Shown here: positions 4,837 through 51,357 of the stretch, piece by piece
How positions within the stretch are numbered: the first letter of the stretch is position 1
How the letters are laid out: each line of letters starts with the position of its first letter
Assembly: GCF_904846235.1 (NCBI RefSeq)
Contig: NZ_CAJGZN010000012.1
Location: forward strand, 1-64,000
Source: Psychrobacter immobilis
GTDB taxonomy: Bacteria > Pseudomonadota > Gammaproteobacteria > Pseudomonadales > Moraxellaceae
Direction: 5' to 3'
DNA length: 64,000 nucleotides
Notes under the pieces: model-generated
The model's input: only the letters and a program-made list of their open reading frames with translations
The model's database searches: none
Told to the model about the DNA's origin: nothing
Translations under genes and position numbers: made by a program

Positions 4837-7083
4837 ATGGTAAGTTTTCAGAATTTTTCAGCCACGCCTTTGTACTGTAGCCTGCAGCGTTTGATGCGCC
4901 TGTGTCGTCCACTTTGTCTAGCAGTGCCATTATGGGCTGCTGGTATTGGTCTTGCCAATGCTGAGAGCTGGAAAGTTAATCTACAAGATGCTGATATCAA
5001 AGCCTTTATCAATGAGGTCGCGACCATCACGGATCAAAACTTTGTACTTGATCCGCGTATCAATGGCAACGTCACGGTCATCTCCAATAAAGCCCTGTCC
5101 CGTGATGAGATTTATCAGCTATTTCTGAGCGTGATGCAAGTGAATGGTATCGCTGCGATTGAATCGGGAACGACGACAAAACTGGTGCCAGATAATATTG
5201 CTAAGCAATCTGGTGTGGCGGTTGATTTACGCGGTGATAGTGTTGGCGAATCGCTCGCCACTCGAGTTATTTATTTGACCAATACCCAAGCTGCAGAAGT
5301 ATTAGGTGTTATTCGCCCATTGATGCCGCAGTCAGCTCACGCGGCCGCTGTACCTGGTGTCAATGCGCTAGTATTGTCCGATCGAGCAGACAGTCTTAAT
5401 CAGCTGACAGCTCTTATCCGTGACTTAGACAGTAATGTAAATGACAGTTTGCAAGTGATACCACTACGCCACGTCGATGCCGAACGTATGATGGAGTTGA
5501 TTAGCGCCTTAGTCTCAAGTGCGGGTAGCGGGCAAGCTCAAGGTGGCAACAATCAGCTAAAGGTGATTGCTGATACGTCAAGCGATAGACTGCTAGTCAA
5601 AGGCAGTCCTGAAATGATTGCTAAAGTCCAAGAAATGGTCAATCAGTTGGATACCACGCCGACCAGACGTTTAAGTGGTCTACGTGTCTTTCGATTAAAG
5701 TATGCTAGTGCTGGTCATATCGCCGATATGTTACGCGGTTTACTCGCTAACCAATCTATCAATAGTGCTGGCGCGACCTCGACACTAGAATCAGCCTCAC
5801 TAAATGATGTAAGCAGCACAGGCGCTGCAATTAATAATGCAGCTAGCGATAGCCTTGGTAGTAGCAGTGCGGCCGCTGTCTCGACTAGCAGCACAAGCGG
5901 AACAAGCACAGGGGTGGGCGGTCGTCCGTTTAGTATTATCGCTGATGAAACTCAAAATGCCGTTATCGTTAACGCCGCACCTGAGCTCATGTTCGAGATT
6001 GAAGATGCAGTCAACCAATTAGACAGTCGCCGCGCACAAGTATTAATTCAAGCTGCCATTGTTGAAGTGTCAGGCGATGATGCCACCCAGCTAGGTGTTC
6101 AGTGGGCGCTAGGTAACGCCAATAGTGGCTATGGAGTGGTCAACTTTAACAATGTGGGGGCGAGCGCAACGACGCTTGCGGCGGCTGCTTTAGCAGGGAC
6201 AAGTACGGCAGGCATTAGCGCTGCGGCCAGCTCTATCGCAGGTGCATTGATAGGAATTGGAGACAGTCGTAAAGACAGTCAGGGCAATACAGAGTTTTAT
6301 GGTGCTATTTTACAGGCGCTTGACTCATCTACCAGTGCCAACTTGCTATCCATGCCATCGATTTTGACATTGGATAATGAAAAAGCCAGTATCTTAGTTG
6401 GTCAAAACGTACCTTTTGTTACGGGTTCTTTTACTACCAGTGGCAATAACTCAAACAACCCATTTCAGACAATTGATCGCCAAGACATTGGTATTAATCT
6501 GAATGTCATTCCTCATATTGGTGACAATGGCACAGTACGATTAGAGGTATCGCAAGAAGTCTCGTCAGTCGTGCCAGGTAGTACGGGTAATGCCAGTGGG
6601 CTAATTACCAATAAAAGCCTTATTAATACGACCATTCTAGCGGATGATCAGCAGACGATTGCCTTGGGCGGATTAATGCGTGATAACACCACCACACGTC
6701 AACAGAAAGTTCCTGGACTGGGTAATGTTCCAGTCATCGGTAGACTCTTTCGTTCTGACAATGACAGCACCCAAAAGAGCAATTTGATTATCTTTTTACA
6801 GCCGACTATCCTACGTGATGGCGGCGCGGTAGCGAGTGTGACTGAACGCAAGTTCAATCAAATGCGAGTGTTGCAGTTGGTCATTGATAAAAACGGTACG
6901 ATTAAGCAGTTACCATTGAGCGGCACTGAAGGTTGGAATGGTAATGTCAGTGCAGATTACGAGCTTATGCCGCTCAATCCCCTTATCCCTAAACGTGATC
7001 AAGCGCCAAAATCTACTTCGCAAGGTTTTACGAGAGTAGATAGTCCTAATAGCGGTATCACGACCTATCCTCTTAATCGTTAA
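4837..7083 (+). CDS. gspD: Type II secretion secretin (GspD)
   Basis: Outer-membrane secretin (748 aa) forming the exit channel. There is a cleavable signal peptide (ending LANA, residues ~1-42), an N0 domain beginning WKVNLQDADIKAFI, N1-N3 domains (repeats such as LQVIPLRHVDAERMMELI and LRVFRLKYASAGHIADML), and a secretin core from ~residue 395. The core shows VLIQAAIVEVS, LLSMPSILTLDNEKA and VPGLGNVPVIGRLF, the last being the universal C-terminal secretin signature. Residues ~315-370 are a Ser/Ala/Thr-rich insertion within or next to N3, a known variable spot. It follows gspC and ends without a canonical terminator; a 13-bp hairpin lies 49 bp further on. Confidence 0.95.
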   Translation: MVSFQNFSATPLYCSLQRLMRLCRPLCLAVPLWAAGIGLANAESWKVNLQDADIKAFINEVATITDQNFVLDPRINGNVTVISNKALSRDEIYQLFLSVMQVNGIAAIESGTTTKLVPDNIAKQSGVAVDLRGDSVGESLATRVIYLTNTQAAEVLGVIRPLMPQSAHAAAVPGVNALVLSDRADSLNQLTALIRDLDSNVNDSLQVIPLRHVDAERMMELISALVSSAGSGQAQGGNNQLKVIADTSSDRLLVKGSPEMIAKVQEMVNQLDTTPTRRLSGLRVFRLKYASAGHIADMLRGLLANQSINSAGATSTLESASLNDVSSTGAAINNAASDSLGSSSAAAVSTSSTSGTSTGVGGRPFSIIADETQNAVIVNAAPELMFEIEDAVNQLDSRRAQVLIQAAIVEVSGDDATQLGVQWALGNANSGYGVVNFNNVGASATTLAAAALAGTSTAGISAAASSIAGALIGIGDSRKDSQGNTEFYGAILQALDSSTSANLLSMPSILTLDNEKASILVGQNVPFVTGSFTTSGNNSNNPFQTIDRQDIGINLNVIPHIGDNGTVRLEVSQEVSSVVPGSTGNASGLITNKSLINTTILADDQQTIALGGLMRDNTTTRQQKVPGLGNVPVIGRLFRSDNDSTQKSNLIIFLQPTILRDGGAVASVTERKFNQMRVLQLVIDKNGTIKQLPLSGTEGWNGNVSADYELMPLNPLIPKRDQAPKSTSQGFTRVDSPNSGITTYPLNR

Positions 7084-35648: not shown

Positions 35649-36224
35649 ATGCGAGAGAATAAAATTATAAATACGATAGAAACCGAACGACTGTATCTCA
35701 GACAGTGGCAAGCGAGCGACTTTGCGCCATTCGCTGAGATGAACGCTAACCCTGAAGTAATGGAATACTTTCCTAAATTATTAACTACTTCGATGAGTAA
35801 TACTATCGCCAAAAAATGCCAGTCGCTGATTGATGATAATGGGTGGGGTTTTTGGGCGGTTAGTCTAAAAGAGACAGATACTTTTATCGGTATGGTTGGG
35901 TTAAATCATGCGTATGCCGATATGCCGTTTTCTCCTGCTGTTGAGATTGCTTGGCGCCTGCATAATGATTATTGGGGATTAGGGTATGCGACAGAGGCGG
36001 CAAGGGCTTCATTGAATTTTGCATTCGATACATTAGGACTAGATGAAGTCGTTGCCTTTACTGCCGTTATCAATAAGCGCTCACAATTGGTTATGGAGCG
36101 CCTTGGTATGACCAATACACAGGAGGATTTTTTTCACCCTATGCTTGAGTCTAATCATCGGCTCGCTGAGCATGTGCTGTACAAAATCACTCGGCAGCAG
36201 TGGCAGGATACGGTGCTCACTTAG
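35649..36224 (+). CDS. GNAT acetyltransferase (RimJ/RimL-like)
   Basis: A 191-residue GNAT domain protein. ETERLYLRQWQASDF is the RimJ/RimL-type start; the acetyl-CoA binding segment is YWGLGYATEAARASLNFAFDTLGLDEVVAFTAVIN, followed by RSQLVMERLGM. Substrate is unknown; members modify ribosomal proteins, spermidine or small amines. ATG 35649 is preferred; a TTG at 35637 is in frame. It is convergent with the methyltransferase gene, with only 19 bp between stops. Confidence 0.87.
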   Translation: MRENKIINTIETERLYLRQWQASDFAPFAEMNANPEVMEYFPKLLTTSMSNTIAKKCQSLIDDNGWGFWAVSLKETDTFIGMVGLNHAYADMPFSPAVEIAWRLHNDYWGLGYATEAARASLNFAFDTLGLDEVVAFTAVINKRSQLVMERLGMTNTQEDFFHPMLESNHRLAEHVLYKITRQQWQDTVLT

Positions 36225-36243
36225 CTGCATTGATGGCTGTCTT

Positions 36244-36924
36244 TTACTCTGTTTGGCTACTATTATCACGCGAAAACGTCAGAATATGCCCTTTAAAAGG
36301 TAAGTCTAGATAAGTAGTATTTTCAGGTTTGACATGCTTACTACTAAAGCCAAACTCAGTCATCTTGTTGGTTAACTTGTTTTTGCGACCGCGACCAGGA
36401 TCGACCACGATGACCTCGCAAGTCGGCATAGCATGACGGTCAATGAACTCAGCCAATATATCAATGTGTTGGTCTTCATATAGCAAGTCACTGCCGATAA
36501 TCATATCAAATTTACCCAAATGGCTATTGTCTTCTGCCCAATCTAAACGCTCAAAATTAATCTCTTTATTATTATTCAGCGTGGTATTTCTATCAAGGAA
36601 ATACTCAACCGTTGGATGATAGTCAGTCGCTGTGATGTCCGCATGTCTATGATTCAGTAGCAAACTAGAGAGCGCCATACCGCAGCCAACTTCCAAAATA
36701 CGTTTGCCTGCAATATCGTAATCGAGCATATGATTGGCCAGCACCAAGCTTGACGGCCATATCACCCCAAACATCGGCCAAGAAGCGGAGCAAATGCCAA
36801 GTTTTAACGCTTCGTCATCAGGGTCGCTAAATTGTTGATTGTCACGTAGTGTGCAAATATGAATGTCGGTATTGCCAATTTCAATCGTTTGATAACGCAC
36901 GCGCACAGTGGTCAGCGAAGTCAT
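36244..36924 (-). CDS. SAM-dependent methyltransferase, lysine-methyltransferase-like
   Basis: A 226-residue class I methyltransferase of the Methyltransf_16 (METTL21-like) type. GVIWPSSLVLANHML and the SAM motif ILEVGCGMALSSLLL lead to motif II ITATDY and the characteristic DLLY (IIGSDLLYED, the post-motif-II DxxY of protein lysine methyltransferases). No partner protein is adjacent, so the substrate is unknown. Convergent with the GNAT gene. Confidence 0.84.
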   Translation of the reverse strand: MTSLTTVRVRYQTIEIGNTDIHICTLRDNQQFSDPDDEALKLGICSASWPMFGVIWPSSLVLANHMLDYDIAGKRILEVGCGMALSSLLLNHRHADITATDYHPTVEYFLDRNTTLNNNKEINFERLDWAEDNSHLGKFDMIIGSDLLYEDQHIDILAEFIDRHAMPTCEVIVVDPGRGRKNKLTNKMTEFGFSSKHVKPENTTYLDLPFKGHILTFSRDNSSQTE

Positions 36925-37343
36925 AAACTGTCCTAAAAAATAAGCAAGAATGCAAGGTTTGGCAGGGGTTGCCGATTTCGGTAGGGTACAACGTTGGAAA
37001 AGATAATTAAAATATTGGAAGCTGTATAGATATTTGAATGATTAGAGGTTTGTGGCAACTTAAGTCGTGGCAAGAAAATACCTAAGCGTCTGAGGAGAGT
37101 ATGACCTAAATTCTGACAAGTTATTGTTAATTCTGAGAGTATTGTTATTACTGCGTAGAGTAAACTAATATCAGAGACTGATAGAGATAAAGATGGTACG
37201 AAAGAGATCTATATGAGAATAAGCGGTGCGCTTGATTTGAGCTAAGCGCACTGCTTATGCTCGCATAAAAGATTGAGATTAGGCATCAAATCAGTCAATG
37301 CAACGGAATGAATTAAGCGAGTTAAATCAGTTAAGAAACCTCC
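36925..37343. other. Intergenic region with one 15-bp hairpin
   Basis: 419 bases without a gene. The arms ataagcggtgcgctt (37219-37233) and aagcgcactgcttat (37244-37258) pair with one mismatch; this lies 85 bp beyond the 3' end of the minus-strand gene group and may be its terminator despite a poor T-run. Nothing else is recognised. Confidence 0.5.
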
Positions 37344-37970
37344 TTAGTTAAGAAATCTCAATCCAGAGGTTTTGAGTGCCCATACCAGCTCTACAAAAGC
37401 GCGACTGTTGGTCAAAGGTTCACCATCGATGATGAGAACGTAGCCTGCATTATCTATCCATAAAAACACAAAGCTGGTCTCAGGAATGAGTAGGTCGACC
37501 TGCTGAAAAAACGAGATGGCTTGGCTTTCTACCGCCCATCCACGTTGCTTTTGGCGAAGCATAAATCCTGAAAAATCAGCGGCGGCGACACTGAGCATAT
37601 CTGCTTCTTCTTGACTATAGCCCACTCGCGCTAAACAAAACCCTTCATCAGAGCCGATCGCGGCACGGCGTTTACCAGATAAGCTCGCCACGACATAAGG
37701 CAAAAACTGGTCCAATGGCAAGTTAGGCGCTGGTAAAAACAGCGACAGCTTTTCAATCCAACCTTGTTCGATAAAGCCTTGTAGCCATTGTTCAGAATAA
37801 CGCTGAAGCCAGTCAGCAGCGAGCAGTGTCTGATCATAAGACAGCAAATCCTGTAATGCCAGCTGCTCATCAGTTGGTTCGTTCTGTGAAAACGCCTCAA
37901 AAATACCAGCTGGCGTCAGGGTAAGATAGGTTTTATCAGCATTTAAGTAAGAGGACATAGTAACTACCAT
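37344..37970 (-). CDS. Unrecognised protein, last gene of the roadblock-PAS-PhnD group (208 aa)
   Basis: No family recognised. There is no signal peptide or membrane helix. The middle region is hydrophobic and helical (LPLDQFLPYVVASLSGKRRAA), and the C-terminal third (FVFLWIDNAGYVLIIDGEPL, FVELVWALKTSGLRFL) has an alternating strand pattern. The first of two possible starts is 37970; a second ATG at 37958 is also possible. It is the last of five genes reading the same way; a 107-bp repeat lies between it and the preceding gene. Function unknown, but position suggests membership in the same system. Confidence 0.62.
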   Translation of the reverse strand: MVVTMSSYLNADKTYLTLTPAGIFEAFSQNEPTDEQLALQDLLSYDQTLLAADWLQRYSEQWLQGFIEQGWIEKLSLFLPAPNLPLDQFLPYVVASLSGKRRAAIGSDEGFCLARVGYSQEEADMLSVAAADFSGFMLRQKQRGWAVESQAISFFQQVDLLIPETSFVFLWIDNAGYVLIIDGEPLTNSRAFVELVWALKTSGLRFLN

Positions 37971-38010
37971 TATGATAAAAGTGATTAATAAGTGACAAAT
38001 TAAGCTTTCA

Positions 38011-38117
38011 TATCGTTGAGTTCAAATAATTTCGATACAAGGAAACCGAGCGTAAGTTATACATTAGTATGCTTAGCGAGGATAACGATGTAGCGGATTT
38101 ATATGGATTTGACTATA
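38011..38117 (-). repeat. 107-bp dispersed repeat (copy 1)
   Basis: Reverse-complement copy of the element at 51251-51357, nearly identical along most of its length (the right two thirds differ at only a few positions). One end is gactata (38111-38117); the other reads tatcgtt and is diverged. It overlaps the 3' end of the gene at 38099-38722 and supplies its last five codons and stop. Confidence 0.85.
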
Positions 38118-38722
38118 GTTTGATCGAGATGTTGTTGGCAGTTGTCCCAGCGTGCATCGAACTGCCAATCACTTCTACCCAAGCGAAACCATACTAGCGA
38201 AAATGCGAGACGATCATTGCGTGCAGTACAATGGGCAAAAAACTCGTTTTCGATTTGCTCAATCGTACCCCAGTCTTCGTCCTCACGCGCTTGCATCAGC
38301 TCAGTGGTGATGTCTTTAGCGATTTCTCGGGCATCGTCGCTGCTGATACGCAGTCGTTGCTTTTGCTCATTGAGAGAAGGAGATATCAGCACACTCCAAC
38401 GTGTAGCCAACATACTATTGCGCTGGATGTATCTTTTTTTATCAATGCACTCGCGAAAGCCTTGCTGGACATGAGGATACAAACGATCTTTGATACGAGT
38501 AAACAGATTGTTTACATCGTATGGGATATCAAACCAGCAACCATAAAAAAAGTCTGCCACTGCACCCTGTAGCGGTTCTTTCTCCGTCAATAGCAAAGCT
38601 GCGTTGATACGCTGCTCATGAAAGTGACGGTTGTTAGGAGCTAAAAATACTTTACGAGAGTAAAACCGAAATACTCGATGCGCGACTCTTTCATTTTCTT
38701 TGATAAGGTCTGAATCAGACAT
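38099..38722 (-). CDS. Unrecognised protein of the roadblock-PAS-PhnD group (207 aa)
   Basis: No family recognised. Soluble, charged and rich in Arg, Trp and Phe (ENERVAHRVFRFYSRKVFL, RWSVLISPSLNEQKQRL, LVWFRLGRSDWQFDARW). A strong ribosome site GGAGG lies 8-9 bp before ATG 38722. Codons from 38116 to the stop lie inside a dispersed 107-bp repeat, so the final IVKSI and stop codon come from the repeat: the original C-terminus may have been longer or different. It is 124 bp downstream of the PhnD-like gene. Confidence 0.68.
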   Translation of the reverse strand: MSDSDLIKENERVAHRVFRFYSRKVFLAPNNRHFHEQRINAALLLTEKEPLQGAVADFFYGCWFDIPYDVNNLFTRIKDRLYPHVQQGFRECIDKKRYIQRNSMLATRWSVLISPSLNEQKQRLRISSDDAREIAKDITTELMQAREDEDWGTIEQIENEFFAHCTARNDRLAFSLVWFRLGRSDWQFDARWDNCQQHLDQTIVKSI

Positions 38723-38846
38723 AATAATACCCTCCTATCATCGCTATTATTACGACGGTGCTTGTTTCAATGATAATGATGTTGTAAAACAAACGATGAC
38801 TTCATCTCGCAAAATAGCGCTTGATATCAATATAATGATTGAGCGA

Positions 38847-39596
38847 CTAATCCAATAATGTCTGCATCAAATCAATCATAAATTCGGCATCTTCTTCGCT
38901 CATTGGCTCAAACCCTTGAGGCATGCCAAGCTCAGCCAAGGCCTCTTTACCATCTGCATCGTTGTGCAAATTCAGGATGGCTTCTAGGAAGATTTGTGCA
39001 TCGGGAAAGTCTTCTTTAACAAGGAGTACATGACTGATATCAGCCAAGTCACTTTCGATAAGTACCGACAGCTGAGTTTTGGTCAAACGTGAAAAGCTAT
39101 GAAAAATCTCTGCCAAAAAGAACGCGACTTGGGCTTCACCTTTGATGACTTTGCGGGCAGCCGCTTGATAGGTCTCGGTCACATCCCAGTTGAGATCAGA
39201 CGCTTCTATATCGACGACTTCTAGCAATCGCAAACCAATCAGTTTGACATCTCGGTTGTCAGCCATCGCGACAGTAGCCCCTGCTTGAATGTCTTCCAAA
39301 CGGCTGATAGTGCTATTGGCAGCGGCTGCAATGATCATCTCGTCAGATTTACCGATAGGTCGGGCAATGGCTCGATAGCCTTGCTCGCGGATGAGAGTGG
39401 CTGCATCAAAAGGGTTGGCATAAATGATTTGAATGTCACCGGCACTAATGACCTGCTCTTGCTCAGCGTGAGAGGCAGGAATATTGAGATGCATGTTTAA
39501 GTTGGCACGTTTTTGAATCAAGGTGTTGAACATGTGCCAGCCTGCAAAGCGATCAGGCGAAAAATCAGGGGCGATTAACATATTGTGTGTCGTCAT
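38847..39596 (-). CDS. PhnD-like ligand-binding protein without signal peptide
   Basis: A 249-residue periplasmic-binding-protein fold of the PhnD/phosphate-phosphonate type: LIAPDFSPDRFAGWHMFNTL, IQIIYANPFDAATLIREQGYRAIARPIGKSDEMIIAAA, and VIKGEAQVAFFLAEIFHSFSRLTK. The PhnD pattern of F-x-G...Y-N...D-A is present. Unlike transport proteins it has no signal peptide or lipobox, and no permease or ATPase is nearby, so it should act in the cytoplasm as a ligand sensor. GAGGAAGG precedes the ATG, and only three bases separate it from the PAS gene upstream, so the two are cotranscribed and coupled. Ligand unknown. Confidence 0.8.
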   Translation of the reverse strand: MTTHNMLIAPDFSPDRFAGWHMFNTLIQKRANLNMHLNIPASHAEQEQVISAGDIQIIYANPFDAATLIREQGYRAIARPIGKSDEMIIAAAANSTISRLEDIQAGATVAMADNRDVKLIGLRLLEVVDIEASDLNWDVTETYQAAARKVIKGEAQVAFFLAEIFHSFSRLTKTQLSVLIESDLADISHVLLVKEDFPDAQIFLEAILNLHNDADGKEALAELGMPQGFEPMSEEDAEFMIDLMQTLLD

Positions 39597-39599
39597 GAG

Positions 39600-40094
39600 T
39601 TAGCCTTCCTCATCTTGTTTCATTTGGGCATATTGAGTCATCGCCGCTTCAATTTTGCTGCGTGATGGTTTGCGTCGTACCGAGGTGTAGCCGACGGTTT
39701 CACCGCGACGCACGTTAGGCACCACAGTGGCATAGACCCAATAATGACTGCCGTCTTTGCATAAGTTTTTGACATAGCCATGCCATTTTTGTCCAGACTC
39801 GGCAGTACTCCATAAGTCTTTATAGGCAGCTTTTGGCATATCAGGATGACGCAAAATATAGTGCTGTTGGCCAATCAATTCATCTACATGATAGCCACTG
39901 ATTTCGACAAAGGCGTCGTTGACGTGAGTGATGATACCGTCGAGATTGGTACGCGAGACAATCAGTTTGCCATCTGGGTAGGGGCGCTCTATACCAGTAT
40001 CATAGACAGTCCGTGACGTGCCATCATGATAAGTCATCGTGATTTGCTCAGCAGGCATATCGGGTTTGTGTGCATCAGGGATTGGAGAACCCAT
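39600..40094 (-). CDS. PAS-domain sensor protein (Aer-like PAS)
   Basis: A 164-residue stand-alone PAS protein. The domain reads LIVSRTNLDGIITHVNDAFVEISGY, ELIGQQHYILRHPDMPKAAYKDLW and WHGYVKNLCKDGSHYWVYATVVP, which closely follows the PAS of the aerotaxis receptor Aer that binds FAD and reports redox state. No methyl-accepting or kinase output is fused; the C-terminus is a charged helix (RSKIEAAMTQYAQMKQDEEG). ATG 40094 is chosen because AGGAG is 7 bp upstream; the longer start at 40100 overlaps that site. Coupled to the PhnD-like gene. Confidence 0.87.
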   Translation of the reverse strand: MGSPIPDAHKPDMPAEQITMTYHDGTSRTVYDTGIERPYPDGKLIVSRTNLDGIITHVNDAFVEISGYHVDELIGQQHYILRHPDMPKAAYKDLWSTAESGQKWHGYVKNLCKDGSHYWVYATVVPNVRRGETVGYTSVRRKPSRSKIEAAMTQYAQMKQDEEG

Positions 40095-40118
40095 GGTCAT
40101 CTCCTTCGTTGATCGTTA

Positions 40119-40226
40119 TATCGTCAATCCTCTATAAATTGAACACGGTGTCAGCCTTGCTTAGTCTACTACTTGTAGTACTCTCACTCGGCTTCCTTGT
40201 ATCCAAATTATATTGAATCAACTATG
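40119..40226 (+). repeat. 107-bp dispersed repeat (copy 2)
   Basis: Same orientation as the copy at 51251. Left end tatcgtcaatcc and right end tattgaatcaactatg match the family; the ctcgg-ttccttgta core is kept, while the middle ~40 bases differ. It lies between the roadblock gene and the PAS gene, 24 bp upstream of the PAS start, so it is in the leader of that gene. Confidence 0.75.
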
Positions 40227-40270
40227 TTTATAGTAATTAAAAGCTAATAAATTCGATAAGCAGTCGCTAA

Positions 40271-40633
40271 TCAAATGAGCTTTGCCAACGCTTCTGAAGC
40301 GCGCTTAATATCTAGGAATATCAAGCCAAGCTTGGCATTGGGCTTTGCCATGATGGTGAGTACGGCTTCATCGCCTGATGAGGTCATGATGACGTAGCCT
40401 TTCTCGCCTTGAATCATAATACGATCGATACTACCGCGTGCCAACTCGCGGCCTGCACGGTCACCTAATGATAATAATGCTGCTGACATAGCACCCACAC
40501 GATCTTCATCCACGCCGGTTGGTAGAGCTGAAGCAATCATAAGACCATCGTTAGAGATTAGCGCAGATGCTTCAACATCTGCTGATGAACTGTTTAAGTC
40601 TTCCAATATCTGCTGAAATGAATCTGTACGCAT
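40271..40633 (-). CDS. Roadblock/LC7 domain protein
   Basis: A 120-residue single-domain roadblock/LC7 (MglB-like) protein: ALISNDGLMIASALPTGVDEDRVGAMSAALLSLGDRAGRELARGSIDRIMIQGEKGYVIM and LGLIFLDIKRASEAL. MglB-type proteins act as GTPase-activating or scaffold partners of small Ras-like GTPases that set cell polarity and motility, but no GTPase gene is nearby. AGAGAAAG precedes the ATG. It is the first gene of the minus-strand group; the 107-bp repeat at 40119-40226 separates it from the PAS gene. Confidence 0.9.
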   Translation of the reverse strand: MRTDSFQQILEDLNSSSADVEASALISNDGLMIASALPTGVDEDRVGAMSAALLSLGDRAGRELARGSIDRIMIQGEKGYVIMTSSGDEAVLTIMAKPNAKLGLIFLDIKRASEALAKLI

Positions 40634-41255
40634 ATCGCTTTCTCTGTACTGGTGATTGGTTTTTTATTTATGAACTAATGAAGTTAGTCAAAAATATCCT
40701 TGTTTAAAGAAAGGTATTATAATTCCTTACTAATAATATTGATATACATTTGCCCAATTAAAAGTAAATTTTTTGGACTTTTATGCCTTTTGTCATCAAA
40801 TCATTACCCTTTATCTTTATTTTTTCGAGGAAAATGGTGATTTTTTATTATGTCTAGTCGATGAGCGGTTGAAGACCTAGCAAGATCCTTGGTATTTTTT
40901 TGAATAGAGATATTCTTTGTAACTATAGATTAATGTCCATCATTGCTATCAAACGGAGCCGCTGGAATTTAGTTAATAAAAATCGCTTATAGATTCTTAT
41001 GATGAAGATATTTACTAGACTTATAAGTCTCAAAAATGATATACAGTCATGAGGGGATAAATGTTGACACTTCTAAATGCGTTATAAAAATACAAATTGA
41101 GTCAGCTTTTTTGATCCTATCAGTCTCTATACATAATCTTGTATAGGGGCGATTTCAGTTTTACATCAACGTTTATAATCCTTTTGTTTACTCAATATAT
41201 TGTAGCGTCGATGTAAATAATTACTATCACCAGTTTTATCCTAAGGAAGAAATAC
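40634..41255. other. Divergent regulatory region between roadblock gene and gdhA
   Basis: 622 very AT-rich bases with no credible gene. It must contain promoters for both divergent transcripts. An inverted repeat ctatac/gtatag lies near 41128-41148 and a TTGACA at 41064-41069, but no well-spaced -10 could be assigned. Nothing else is recognised. Confidence 0.4.
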
Positions 41256-42602
41256 ATGAGCATCAGTGAAGCCATCCAAAAAGTCGAAGCACGTTATGCC
41301 CATCAGCCCGAATTCATTCAAGCAGTAAAAGAGGTGGCAATTACGATTCAACCTTTATACGATGCGCAGCCTGAATATAGTACGTTAAAGGTATTCGAGC
41401 GTTTGGTAGAGCCTGATCGGGTATTTGGCTTTCGTATCAATTGGGAAGATGATCAAGGCGTGGTACAAGTCAATCGTGGTTGGCGTGTGCAGTTTTGCAA
41501 TGCTCTAGGCCCTTACAAAGGCGGTCTTAGATTCCATCCTACCGTCAATCAATCCGTATTGAAGTTCTTAGGCTTTGAGCAAATCTTTAAAAATGCCTTA
41601 ACTGGCTTGCCTATTGGTGGCGGTAAAGGTGGGTCAGATTTTGATCCTAAAGGTAAAACAGACAGCGAGATACGTCGTTTTTGCTATGCTTTTATGCGTG
41701 AGCTACATCATTACGTGAGCAAAGACATGGATGTGCCTGCTGGTGACATCGGCGTCGGTGGTCGAGAAGTTAGCTATATGTTTGCGATGTATAAGAATTT
41801 AACGCGTGAATCAACAGGGGTTATCACTGGCAAAGGCGTGGGCTTTGGTGGCAGCTTGATGCGTACAGAGGCGACTGGCTACGGTGCAGTCTACTTCTTA
41901 GAAAATATGCTCATCGCTCAGAACGATAAGCTTCAAGGCAAAAAGGTGCTGATATCAGGAGCAGGTAATGTCTCATTACATGCTGCCGAAAAAGTGAATG
42001 CGCTAGGTGGTATGGCAATAACTGTCTCTGATTCACAAGGGACGTTGCATGATGAAAATGGCCTCAATCAAGAAAAAATTGATTGGCTCAAAAAACAAAA
42101 GCAGCAAAACAAGCCTTTAGCAGAGTATGTTGATGTTTATGGTGGCGAGTGGCTTGCCAAACAGAAACCGTGGCAGTTTGAAGCTGATATTGCGATCCCA
42201 TGCGCTACTCAAAATGAAGTCAATGAAGCTGATGCCAAATTATTGGTCGAAAATGGCGTGAAGTATGTGGTGGAAGGCGCTAATATGCCGCTCACTGCGG
42301 AAGCAATTGATTGTATCCGTTTGCACCGTGTTCATTATGCACCTGGTAAAGCTGCTAATGCGGGCGGGGTAGCAGTATCTGCGCTTGAAATGTCGCAAAA
42401 CTCTGTCCGTCAATATCAAACCTTTAAGCAAGTCGATGAGCGTCTAAAAGGTATTATGAAAGATATCCACGACAGTGCTGCGAATGCTTCAGAACAATAT
42501 GGTCAAACTGACAATGGTTATGTCGACTATATGGCTGGTGCCAATATGGTTGGTTTCAAACGTGTGGCTGATGCGTTGGTTGCTTTTGGTATTTTGAACT
42601 AG
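41256..42602 (+). CDS. gdhA: NADP-dependent glutamate dehydrogenase
   Basis: GdhA (448 aa; E. coli 447) interconverts glutamate and 2-oxoglutarate plus ammonia. The substrate lysines are in KGGLRFHPTVNQSVLKFLGFEQ and PIGGGKGGSDF; the Asp of PAGDIGVGGRE and the nucleotide motif SGAGNVSLHAAEKV are present, matching hexameric NADP-type enzymes. AAGGA lies upstream of the ATG. It sits next to the hut locus, whose product is glutamate, which would connect histidine breakdown to central metabolism. A terminator follows. Confidence 0.96.
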   Translation: MSISEAIQKVEARYAHQPEFIQAVKEVAITIQPLYDAQPEYSTLKVFERLVEPDRVFGFRINWEDDQGVVQVNRGWRVQFCNALGPYKGGLRFHPTVNQSVLKFLGFEQIFKNALTGLPIGGGKGGSDFDPKGKTDSEIRRFCYAFMRELHHYVSKDMDVPAGDIGVGGREVSYMFAMYKNLTRESTGVITGKGVGFGGSLMRTEATGYGAVYFLENMLIAQNDKLQGKKVLISGAGNVSLHAAEKVNALGGMAITVSDSQGTLHDENGLNQEKIDWLKKQKQQNKPLAEYVDVYGGEWLAKQKPWQFEADIAIPCATQNEVNEADAKLLVENGVKYVVEGANMPLTAEAIDCIRLHRVHYAPGKAANAGGVAVSALEMSQNSVRQYQTFKQVDERLKGIMKDIHDSAANASEQYGQTDNGYVDYMAGANMVGFKRVADALVAFGILN

Positions 42603-51250: not shown

Positions 51251-51357
51251 TATAGTCAAGCCTATATAAATCCGCTACATCGTTATCCTCGCTAAGCATA
51301 CTAATGTATAACTTGCACTCGGTTTCCTTGTATCGAAATTATATTGAACTGACTATA
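51251..51357 (+). repeat. 107-bp dispersed repeat (copy 4)
   Basis: tatagtcaag to gactata, exactly 107 bp with terminal inverted repeat tatagtca/tgactata. Nearly identical to the reverse complement of copy 1 (38011-38117), and sharing ends and the ctcggtttccttgta core with the copies at 40119 and 46752. It begins 4 bp after the hutC stop. Confidence 0.85.

Follow-up and report, generated by a model that had tools for sequence, protein, structure and literature searches.

A Roadblock–PAS–PhnD Gene Cluster of Psychrobacter as a Probable GTPase-Depleted Descendant of Group 3 Mgl Systems

The window, a stretch of 64,000 nucleotides of Psychrobacter DNA, carries five minus-strand open reading frames that span positions 37344–40633 and encode, in gene order, a stand-alone roadblock/LC7 protein (Rob), a stand-alone PAS protein, a PhnD-like protein, and two proteins of 207 and 208 residues (U207 and U208). 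Judged by their sequences, these genes are a Group 3 Mgl system minus its GTPase and its receiver-like protein (RRL). Most likely the cluster specifies a cytosolic sensor of redox state and ligand that acts on a scaffold of two roadblocks; its ancestry ties it to a GTPase, but here it would work without one. Of descent and mechanism, the former is much the more certain; taken as a whole, the view of the five genes as a GTPase-depleted descendant of Group 3, in which sensors act on a scaffold, is in our judgment probable. The sequence-only reading that preceded this analysis had proposed a possible uncharacterised signalling operon. A conserved module of signalling type is indeed present, but its descent places it among the Group 3 Mgl systems. 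A search of the open literature found no account of such a module; subscription papers and supplements lay outside that search.

Conservation of the Cluster

The five genes are one evolutionary unit. A locus scan with the window PhnD-like protein, from which the best 80 of 84 were kept, yielded 78 loci, a sample weighted to close relatives. The order Rob-PAS-PhnD-U207-U208 is found in 61 of these 78, so that the grouping offered by the sequence-only reading, for which co-occurrence in related genomes had been the suggested check, is borne out together with its coordinates and lengths. Chance clustering is ruled against by this conserved order and by its retention in all 36 of the GTPase-free Psychrobacter genomes described below. 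Among the 61 five-gene loci, 58 are labelled Psychrobacter, two come from Lampropedia (Burkholderiales), and one is L060. Twelve further loci (ten Moraxella, two Psychrobacter) show the order Rob-PAS-PhnD-U207-RRL-GTPase-U208, the RRL and GTPase genes lying at the site that corresponds to the U207–U208 gap of the window (37971–38098, no strand; L057, L062, and others). The remainder are four loci cut by contig ends (L063, L069, L077, and L079), the first of which retains RRL and the GTPase, and one Conchiformibius contig with PAS-Rob-PhnD. Locus L060 is labelled Streptomyces cinereus JCM 3040, yet its module is of Moraxellaceae type, with 65 per cent PhnD identity and a position inside the Moraxella clade; it is probably a contamination or a wrong label.

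In the window's family, 86 of 249 genomes matched a PhnD profile; in its class 19 of 369 did, one of them the window's own. The module is present in 15 of the 18 others from the class, while three (L159–L161) have just a PhnD relative at their best place and were left out of the module loci. The order in the class is U207-RRL-GTPase-U208-Rob-PAS-PhnD. That of the Moraxellaceae is a permutation of it in which the U207-RRL-GTPase-U208 block stays contiguous. Rob and U208 occur in all 15 class module loci, PAS in 14 (L158 has broken reading frames and no PAS call), a linked GTPase in 13, and U207, by profile, in 11. RRL was detected by profile in two (E 1e-3 and 7e-3) and assigned by position and size in nine more; when the profile was widened with the position-assigned members, the Conchiformibius RRL was found at 1e-34. 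The sequence-only reading was correct that no GTPase is linked to the window genes, none lying between or beside them, but the lack is secondary, the GTPase being linked in 13 of the 15 class module loci and in 12 of the 78 related loci.

Kinship with Group 3 Mgl Systems

The GTPase of the relatives has the P-loop GPVGAGKT, the switch-II sequence YGTPGQ, a deviant G4 motif (mostly T-H/R/K-x-D/E), and a G5 motif D-x-R in which D162 and R164 are invariant. The main text of Wuichet & Søgaard-Andersen 2014 (PMC4316618) describes Group 3 MglA systems as almost confined to beta- and gamma-proteobacteria, and as having a GTPase whose G4 deviates from [NT]KxD and whose G5 is DAR, accompanied by one MglB protein or two and by an uncharacterised protein in which a receiver-like region is combined with a winged-helix one. 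The RRL of the relatives is a supported candidate for the receiver-like half of that protein. Its N-terminus (95 columns) aligns to a five-sequence receiver profile at 79–85 per cent hhalign probability, as against 0.2–0.9 per cent for the GTPase, U207, PhnD, and U208 as controls; compared with the PDB, RRL gave three matches (best E 0.36), none credible.

As far as the main text of PMC4316618 allows the comparison, the window cluster has two roadblocks in common with Group 3 systems (U208 by predicted fold only), and its relatives also share the receiver-like partner and a GTPase in which G4 is deviant and G5 is D-x-R. The window cluster differs in being without the GTPase and the receiver-like protein, and in having the PAS protein, cytosolic PhnD, and U207 as additional conserved members. 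Neither PAS nor PhnD is mentioned in that main text. The PAS–PhnD pair offers candidate inputs for Group 3 Mgl systems. A search of the window's own genome with one RRL as query returned no match, a weak test given a single divergent query.

Loss of the GTPase and Retention of the Five Genes

If U207-RRL-GTPase-U208 is the old order, which is taken to be so because the class and Moraxella share it, then the cluster has lost RRL and the GTPase on three occasions or more. In a tree of Rob, PAS, and PhnD (44 taxa, 528 columns), the five-gene Psychrobacter form one clade with an ultrafast bootstrap of about 87, L060 falls inside the Moraxella clade (100), and Lampropedia stands apart from both. 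Locus L144 (genome G418) has kept RRL with no linked GTPase, and no MglA-type GTPase was matched at E <= 1e-6 in the genomes of L144 and L146 (G637). The genome of L060 offers only a GTPase match of 25 residues with a stop; both Lampropedia genomes carry an MglA-type GTPase elsewhere, outside the cluster. The lineages that would have lost the switch are Psychrobacter, the L060 lineage, G418, and probably G637; in Lampropedia the loss would concern the linked GTPase.

Of the genomes sampled in the window's genus, 70 carry the PhnD gene. An MglA-type GTPase is encoded as well by 34 of these (in one, G180, within the cluster), and by the other 36 none. The first GTPase search scored 14 candidates per genome, and the 36 negatives, all near-complete, were searched again with all candidates scored: none gave an MglA-type GTPase at E <= 0.001. 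The same profile does pick up the GTPase elsewhere in the genus and is thus able to detect such a protein. In every one of the 36 genomes the five genes stand in order on one strand, each at 80 per cent of its length or more.

The five genes are under purifying selection. The ratio of nonsynonymous to synonymous substitution rates (dN/dS) lies between 0.003 and 0.109 in the 55 usable of 60 values (the window against 12 loci, for five genes), and in all 11 usable comparisons the lowest ratio among the five genes is that of Rob. With many dS values above 1, the ratios are trustworthy in direction only. Left out were Rob of L003 (0.597; a reading frame broken or mis-started in that assembly), PAS of L003, which showed no differences, and three comparisons for U207 in which dS was saturated. 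The intact five genes in 36 GTPase-free genomes, together with the low dN/dS, argue that the cluster has been kept without this kind of GTPase. That the genes are a decaying Mgl remnant without present function, as the departure of the GTPase and RRL and the presence of an interspersed repeat in two of the gaps might be taken to suggest, is very improbable given this low dN/dS and the completeness of the cluster in 36 of 36 such genomes.

The Putative Sensor Pair

The PAS gene (39600–40100, minus strand) encodes 166 residues with a PAS_3 match of 1.2e-17. The nearest solved relatives of its product are structures of the Escherichia coli aerotaxis receptor Aer (8dik, 3.8e-36, residues 39–157; 31cj, 1.6e-34), in agreement with the stand-alone PAS of Aer type recognised earlier. 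The window protein and Aer have in common the motif RHPDMP and a Trp before G.VKN, both of which we take to have a role in binding flavin adenine dinucleotide (FAD). Though of the same sequence family as Aer, the window PAS is not fused to a chemoreceptor.

The PhnD-like gene (38847–39596, minus strand) specifies a substrate-binding-type protein of 249 residues that matches Phosphonate-bd (PF12974) at 2.7e-34. It lies exactly three bases from PAS, and at the junction (39594–39602, minus strand; TAA-CTC-ATG) the stop codon of PAS shares the reading frame of PhnD and stands two codons ahead of its start, so that no earlier in-frame start is possible. The coupling of the two genes claimed by the sequence-only reading is supported. 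A hidden signal peptide, for which the proposed check had been an upstream start, is ruled out by the same in-frame stop, and the protein has no hydrophobic N-terminus; it is cytosolic. It belongs to the sequence family of the PhnD-type substrate-binding proteins, but differs from them in not being exported and in having no transporter genes among its neighbours. The NCBIfam PhnD model scores it at 12.6 bits against a cut-off of 261, and no PDB relative was found by sequence at E <= 1e-3, nor at E <= 5.

In the Neisseriaceae, 33 of 80 genomes have the PhnD gene, and 16 loci were taken from 13 of these 33. PAS accompanies PhnD in all 16, directly upstream in 14 and with Rob between in two. Rob is present in 11, the PAS–PhnD pair being without it in the other five, and no GTPase was found within the stretches fetched. 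In Conchiformibius, which we assign to the Neisseriaceae, PAS-Rob-PhnD stands on L078 and L216, and a GTPase cluster, RRL-GTPase-U208-Rob, on another contig (L172). Judged by length and gene content, L216 and L078 are one 8,621-base contig, and the two are not independent.

That cytosolic PhnD can be a signalling domain is supported independently by proteins in which it is fused to a STAS domain. Two were found (L143:938–2757, minus; L182:5383–6708, plus), adjoining SpoIIE-type/HATPase proteins. The fusion in L143, from genome G443, is directly followed by a roadblock gene (Robl_LC7 9.5e-8); Sphaerotilus has the other such fusion. A plasmid search matched only a distant PhnD (25.8 per cent), on a single record that is likewise from Sphaerotilus.

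Some cytosolic proteins of the PhnD fold are enzymes, MqnA/MqnD and THI5 among them, and the PhnD-like protein of the window, lacking a solved relative by sequence, might likewise be a cytosolic enzyme or a storage protein whose activity its neighbours regulate or use. This explanation we regard as improbable, in view of the close coupling of the gene to a PAS sensor, the retention of PAS–PhnD without Rob in five of the 16 Neisseriaceae loci, and the SpoIIE-type neighbours of the STAS–PhnD fusions.

Roadblock Proteins and the Helical Protein

Rob (40271–40633, minus strand; 120 residues) is a stand-alone roadblock/LC7 protein resembling MglB-2 and MglB-3, with a Robl_LC7 match of 2.4e-18, and the MglB-like protein of the sequence-only reading is thus present. 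In the PDB it comes closest in sequence to roadblocks of Asgard archaea (7f8m, 7.9e-28; 9jue, 6.7e-20), MglB being far weaker (1.5e-4). At E <= 0.001, no other protein of the window genome matches the Pfam roadblock family.

The two remaining proteins had been described as soluble and unrecognised. Neither has a Pfam match reaching the cut-off, but for U208 (37344–37970, minus strand) the description no longer holds, because it has a predicted roadblock fold. Its AlphaFold2 model, built from 19 sequences, has a predicted local distance difference test score (pLDDT) of 79.5. Among the Foldseek matches listed, most are roadblock/LC7, MglB, and Ragulator p14/MP1 entries, the best being 3kye at E 1.2e-3, with none at E <= 1e-3. 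By VIA the model superimposes on 3kye with Z 8.5 and a root-mean-square deviation of 3.4 over 107 residues, and on MglB with Z 7.4. The match covers about residues 84–205, that is, the C-terminal part, leaving an extra N-terminal domain. By predicted fold, U208 is a second, divergent roadblock protein; its relatives show weak Robl_LC7 matches below the cut-off.

The AlphaFold2 model of U207 (38099–38722, minus strand; pLDDT 84.3; predicted template modelling score 0.54) consists of helices only, apart from short bridges, and fold searches gave no significant match (Foldseek best E 1.6; VIA best Z 7.8, a value common for helical models). A relative in the class has a TPR_19 match of 6.7e-4, below the cut-off, and U207 may perhaps be a TPR-like adaptor.

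Proposed Mechanism

In the proposed scheme, PAS would read the redox state through FAD while the PhnD-like protein would bind a small cytosolic ligand. Coupled as a pair of sensors, they may control which state a Rob/U208 roadblock scaffold adopts or which partner it chooses, with U207 as an adaptor joining the scaffold to its output. In the full seven-gene system the scaffold would act on the GTPase and thereby on RRL. In the window's lineage it would keep an output of its own through direct protein contacts. This output would have to be reached with no RRL encoded in the cluster and, for 36 of the 70 sampled genomes, with no detectable MglA-type GTPase. Purely by analogy with Mgl systems, surface or type IV pilus behaviour would be the leading guess for it. 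That a roadblock sensory complex outlived its GTPase in several separate lineages, keeping sensors and scaffolds with a GTPase-independent output of their own, is a tentative proposal to which we give slightly less than an even chance.

Several observations weigh against this account. The separate losses depend on a single tree, in which the clade of five-gene Psychrobacter is moderately supported (about 87). The search would miss a GTPase that belongs to another family or has diverged beyond the reach of the profile. A profile–profile comparison of U208 with Rob by hhalign was negative, at 0.7 per cent, and U208 of the window has no Pfam roadblock match. The window's own genome, moreover, has another MglA-type GTPase on contig C9, with 35 per cent identity to the cluster GTPase, so that the window's own strain may still depend on a GTPase.

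The C9 genes (L092:6526–8730) encode a roadblock-like protein (119 residues), a BLUF photoreceptor (262 residues; domain match 1.1e-22), the MglA-type GTPase (177 residues), and a roadblock protein (137 residues). BLUF takes the place of the receiver-like reading frame of related clusters, and the group is probably a blue-light GTPase module. It is possible that the five-gene module still works through a GTPase encoded elsewhere, the C9 GTPase serving both systems in the window genome. The presence of this protein, of an MglA-type GTPase in 34 of the 70 PhnD-positive genomes of the genus (that of G180 in the cluster), and of a GTPase elsewhere in both Lampropedia genomes would fit such sharing. 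We nevertheless consider it unlikely, though the strongest of the alternatives, since the other 36 genomes have no GTPase with all candidates scored and yet keep the five genes intact and in order.

The accepted role of MglB and other roadblock proteins is to regulate small GTPases. Where a genome has no detectable MglA-type GTPase but retains a pair of roadblocks together with a PAS of redox type and a cytosolic protein of ligand-binding type, the question whether roadblock complexes can signal on their own is open to direct test. The PAS–PhnD pair is also a possible clue to the signals of “orphan” mglB genes.

Comparison with Other Systems

Such an orphan occurs in Snodgrassella, for which PMC11112851 reports a Group 3 locus with two mglB genes and a distant mglB-3; orphan mutants formed colonies with altered edges on soft agar and were at an advantage in a non-native bee gut. 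The separation of a roadblock gene from the GTPase resembles that in Conchiformibius, where Rob lies between PAS and PhnD and the GTPase on another contig. Unlike the window cluster, Snodgrassella retains the GTPase. An attempt to pick out a Snodgrassella locus by the reported codon of an mglB-3 mutation failed: glycine is found at that position, but with a different codon.

In Myxococcus xanthus, the abstracts describe a roadblock GTPase-activating protein, a response-regulator partner, and a co-activator of this kind in the MglA/MglB/RomR/RomX/RomY system (PMC9481161), and a TPR protein, SgmX, as MglA effector (PMC7519303). This system is a model for the roles of Rob, RRL, U208, and U207, and any relation of U207 or U208 to RomY or SgmX would be one of analogy only. 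It differs in that its GTPase is essential and that no PAS or PhnD partner appears in those abstracts. Actinobacterial conservons, as outlined in PMC13343842, PMC8510531, and PMC4316618, combine a sensor, a roadblock, a small protein, and an MglA-type GTPase in one operon. Their histidine-kinase-like sensor (CvnA) and GTPase (CvnD) are both absent from the window cluster.

Further Features of the Locus

The source genome comprises 3.22 Mb in 68 contigs, and its closest named relatives are Psychrobacter. In gene order, the gaps between the five genes measure 170, 3, 124, and 128 nucleotides. A promoter scan of the locus gave counts near the shuffle level (15 observed; 11.0 shuffled, standard deviation 3.1), the minus-strand terminator-like sites all lie within genes and none in the gaps, and no RNA family reached the gathering threshold in window positions 36000–42000. 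As an anti-phage defence system the five genes were rejected, none of the five proteins matching PADLOC models at E <= 0.01.

The core of an interspersed repeat, GATACAAGGAANCCGAG, has three copies in the window (38034–38050, plus; 40187–40203, minus; 51318–51334, minus), where 0.01 is expected; two of them occupy the U207–U208 and Rob–PAS gaps. Additional genes are inserted between U208 and Rob in two class loci: a second PhnD-type gene in L144 (9484–10218, minus) and a protoglobin gene in L154 (3.9e-23; 6056–6649, plus), the latter a hint of a gas or redox input. Another PhnD-like subfamily without a hydrophobic N-terminus is seen at L159:7464–8713 and L160:6906–8143, adjoined by a small gene that in L160 has an SCP2 match (6.8e-14).

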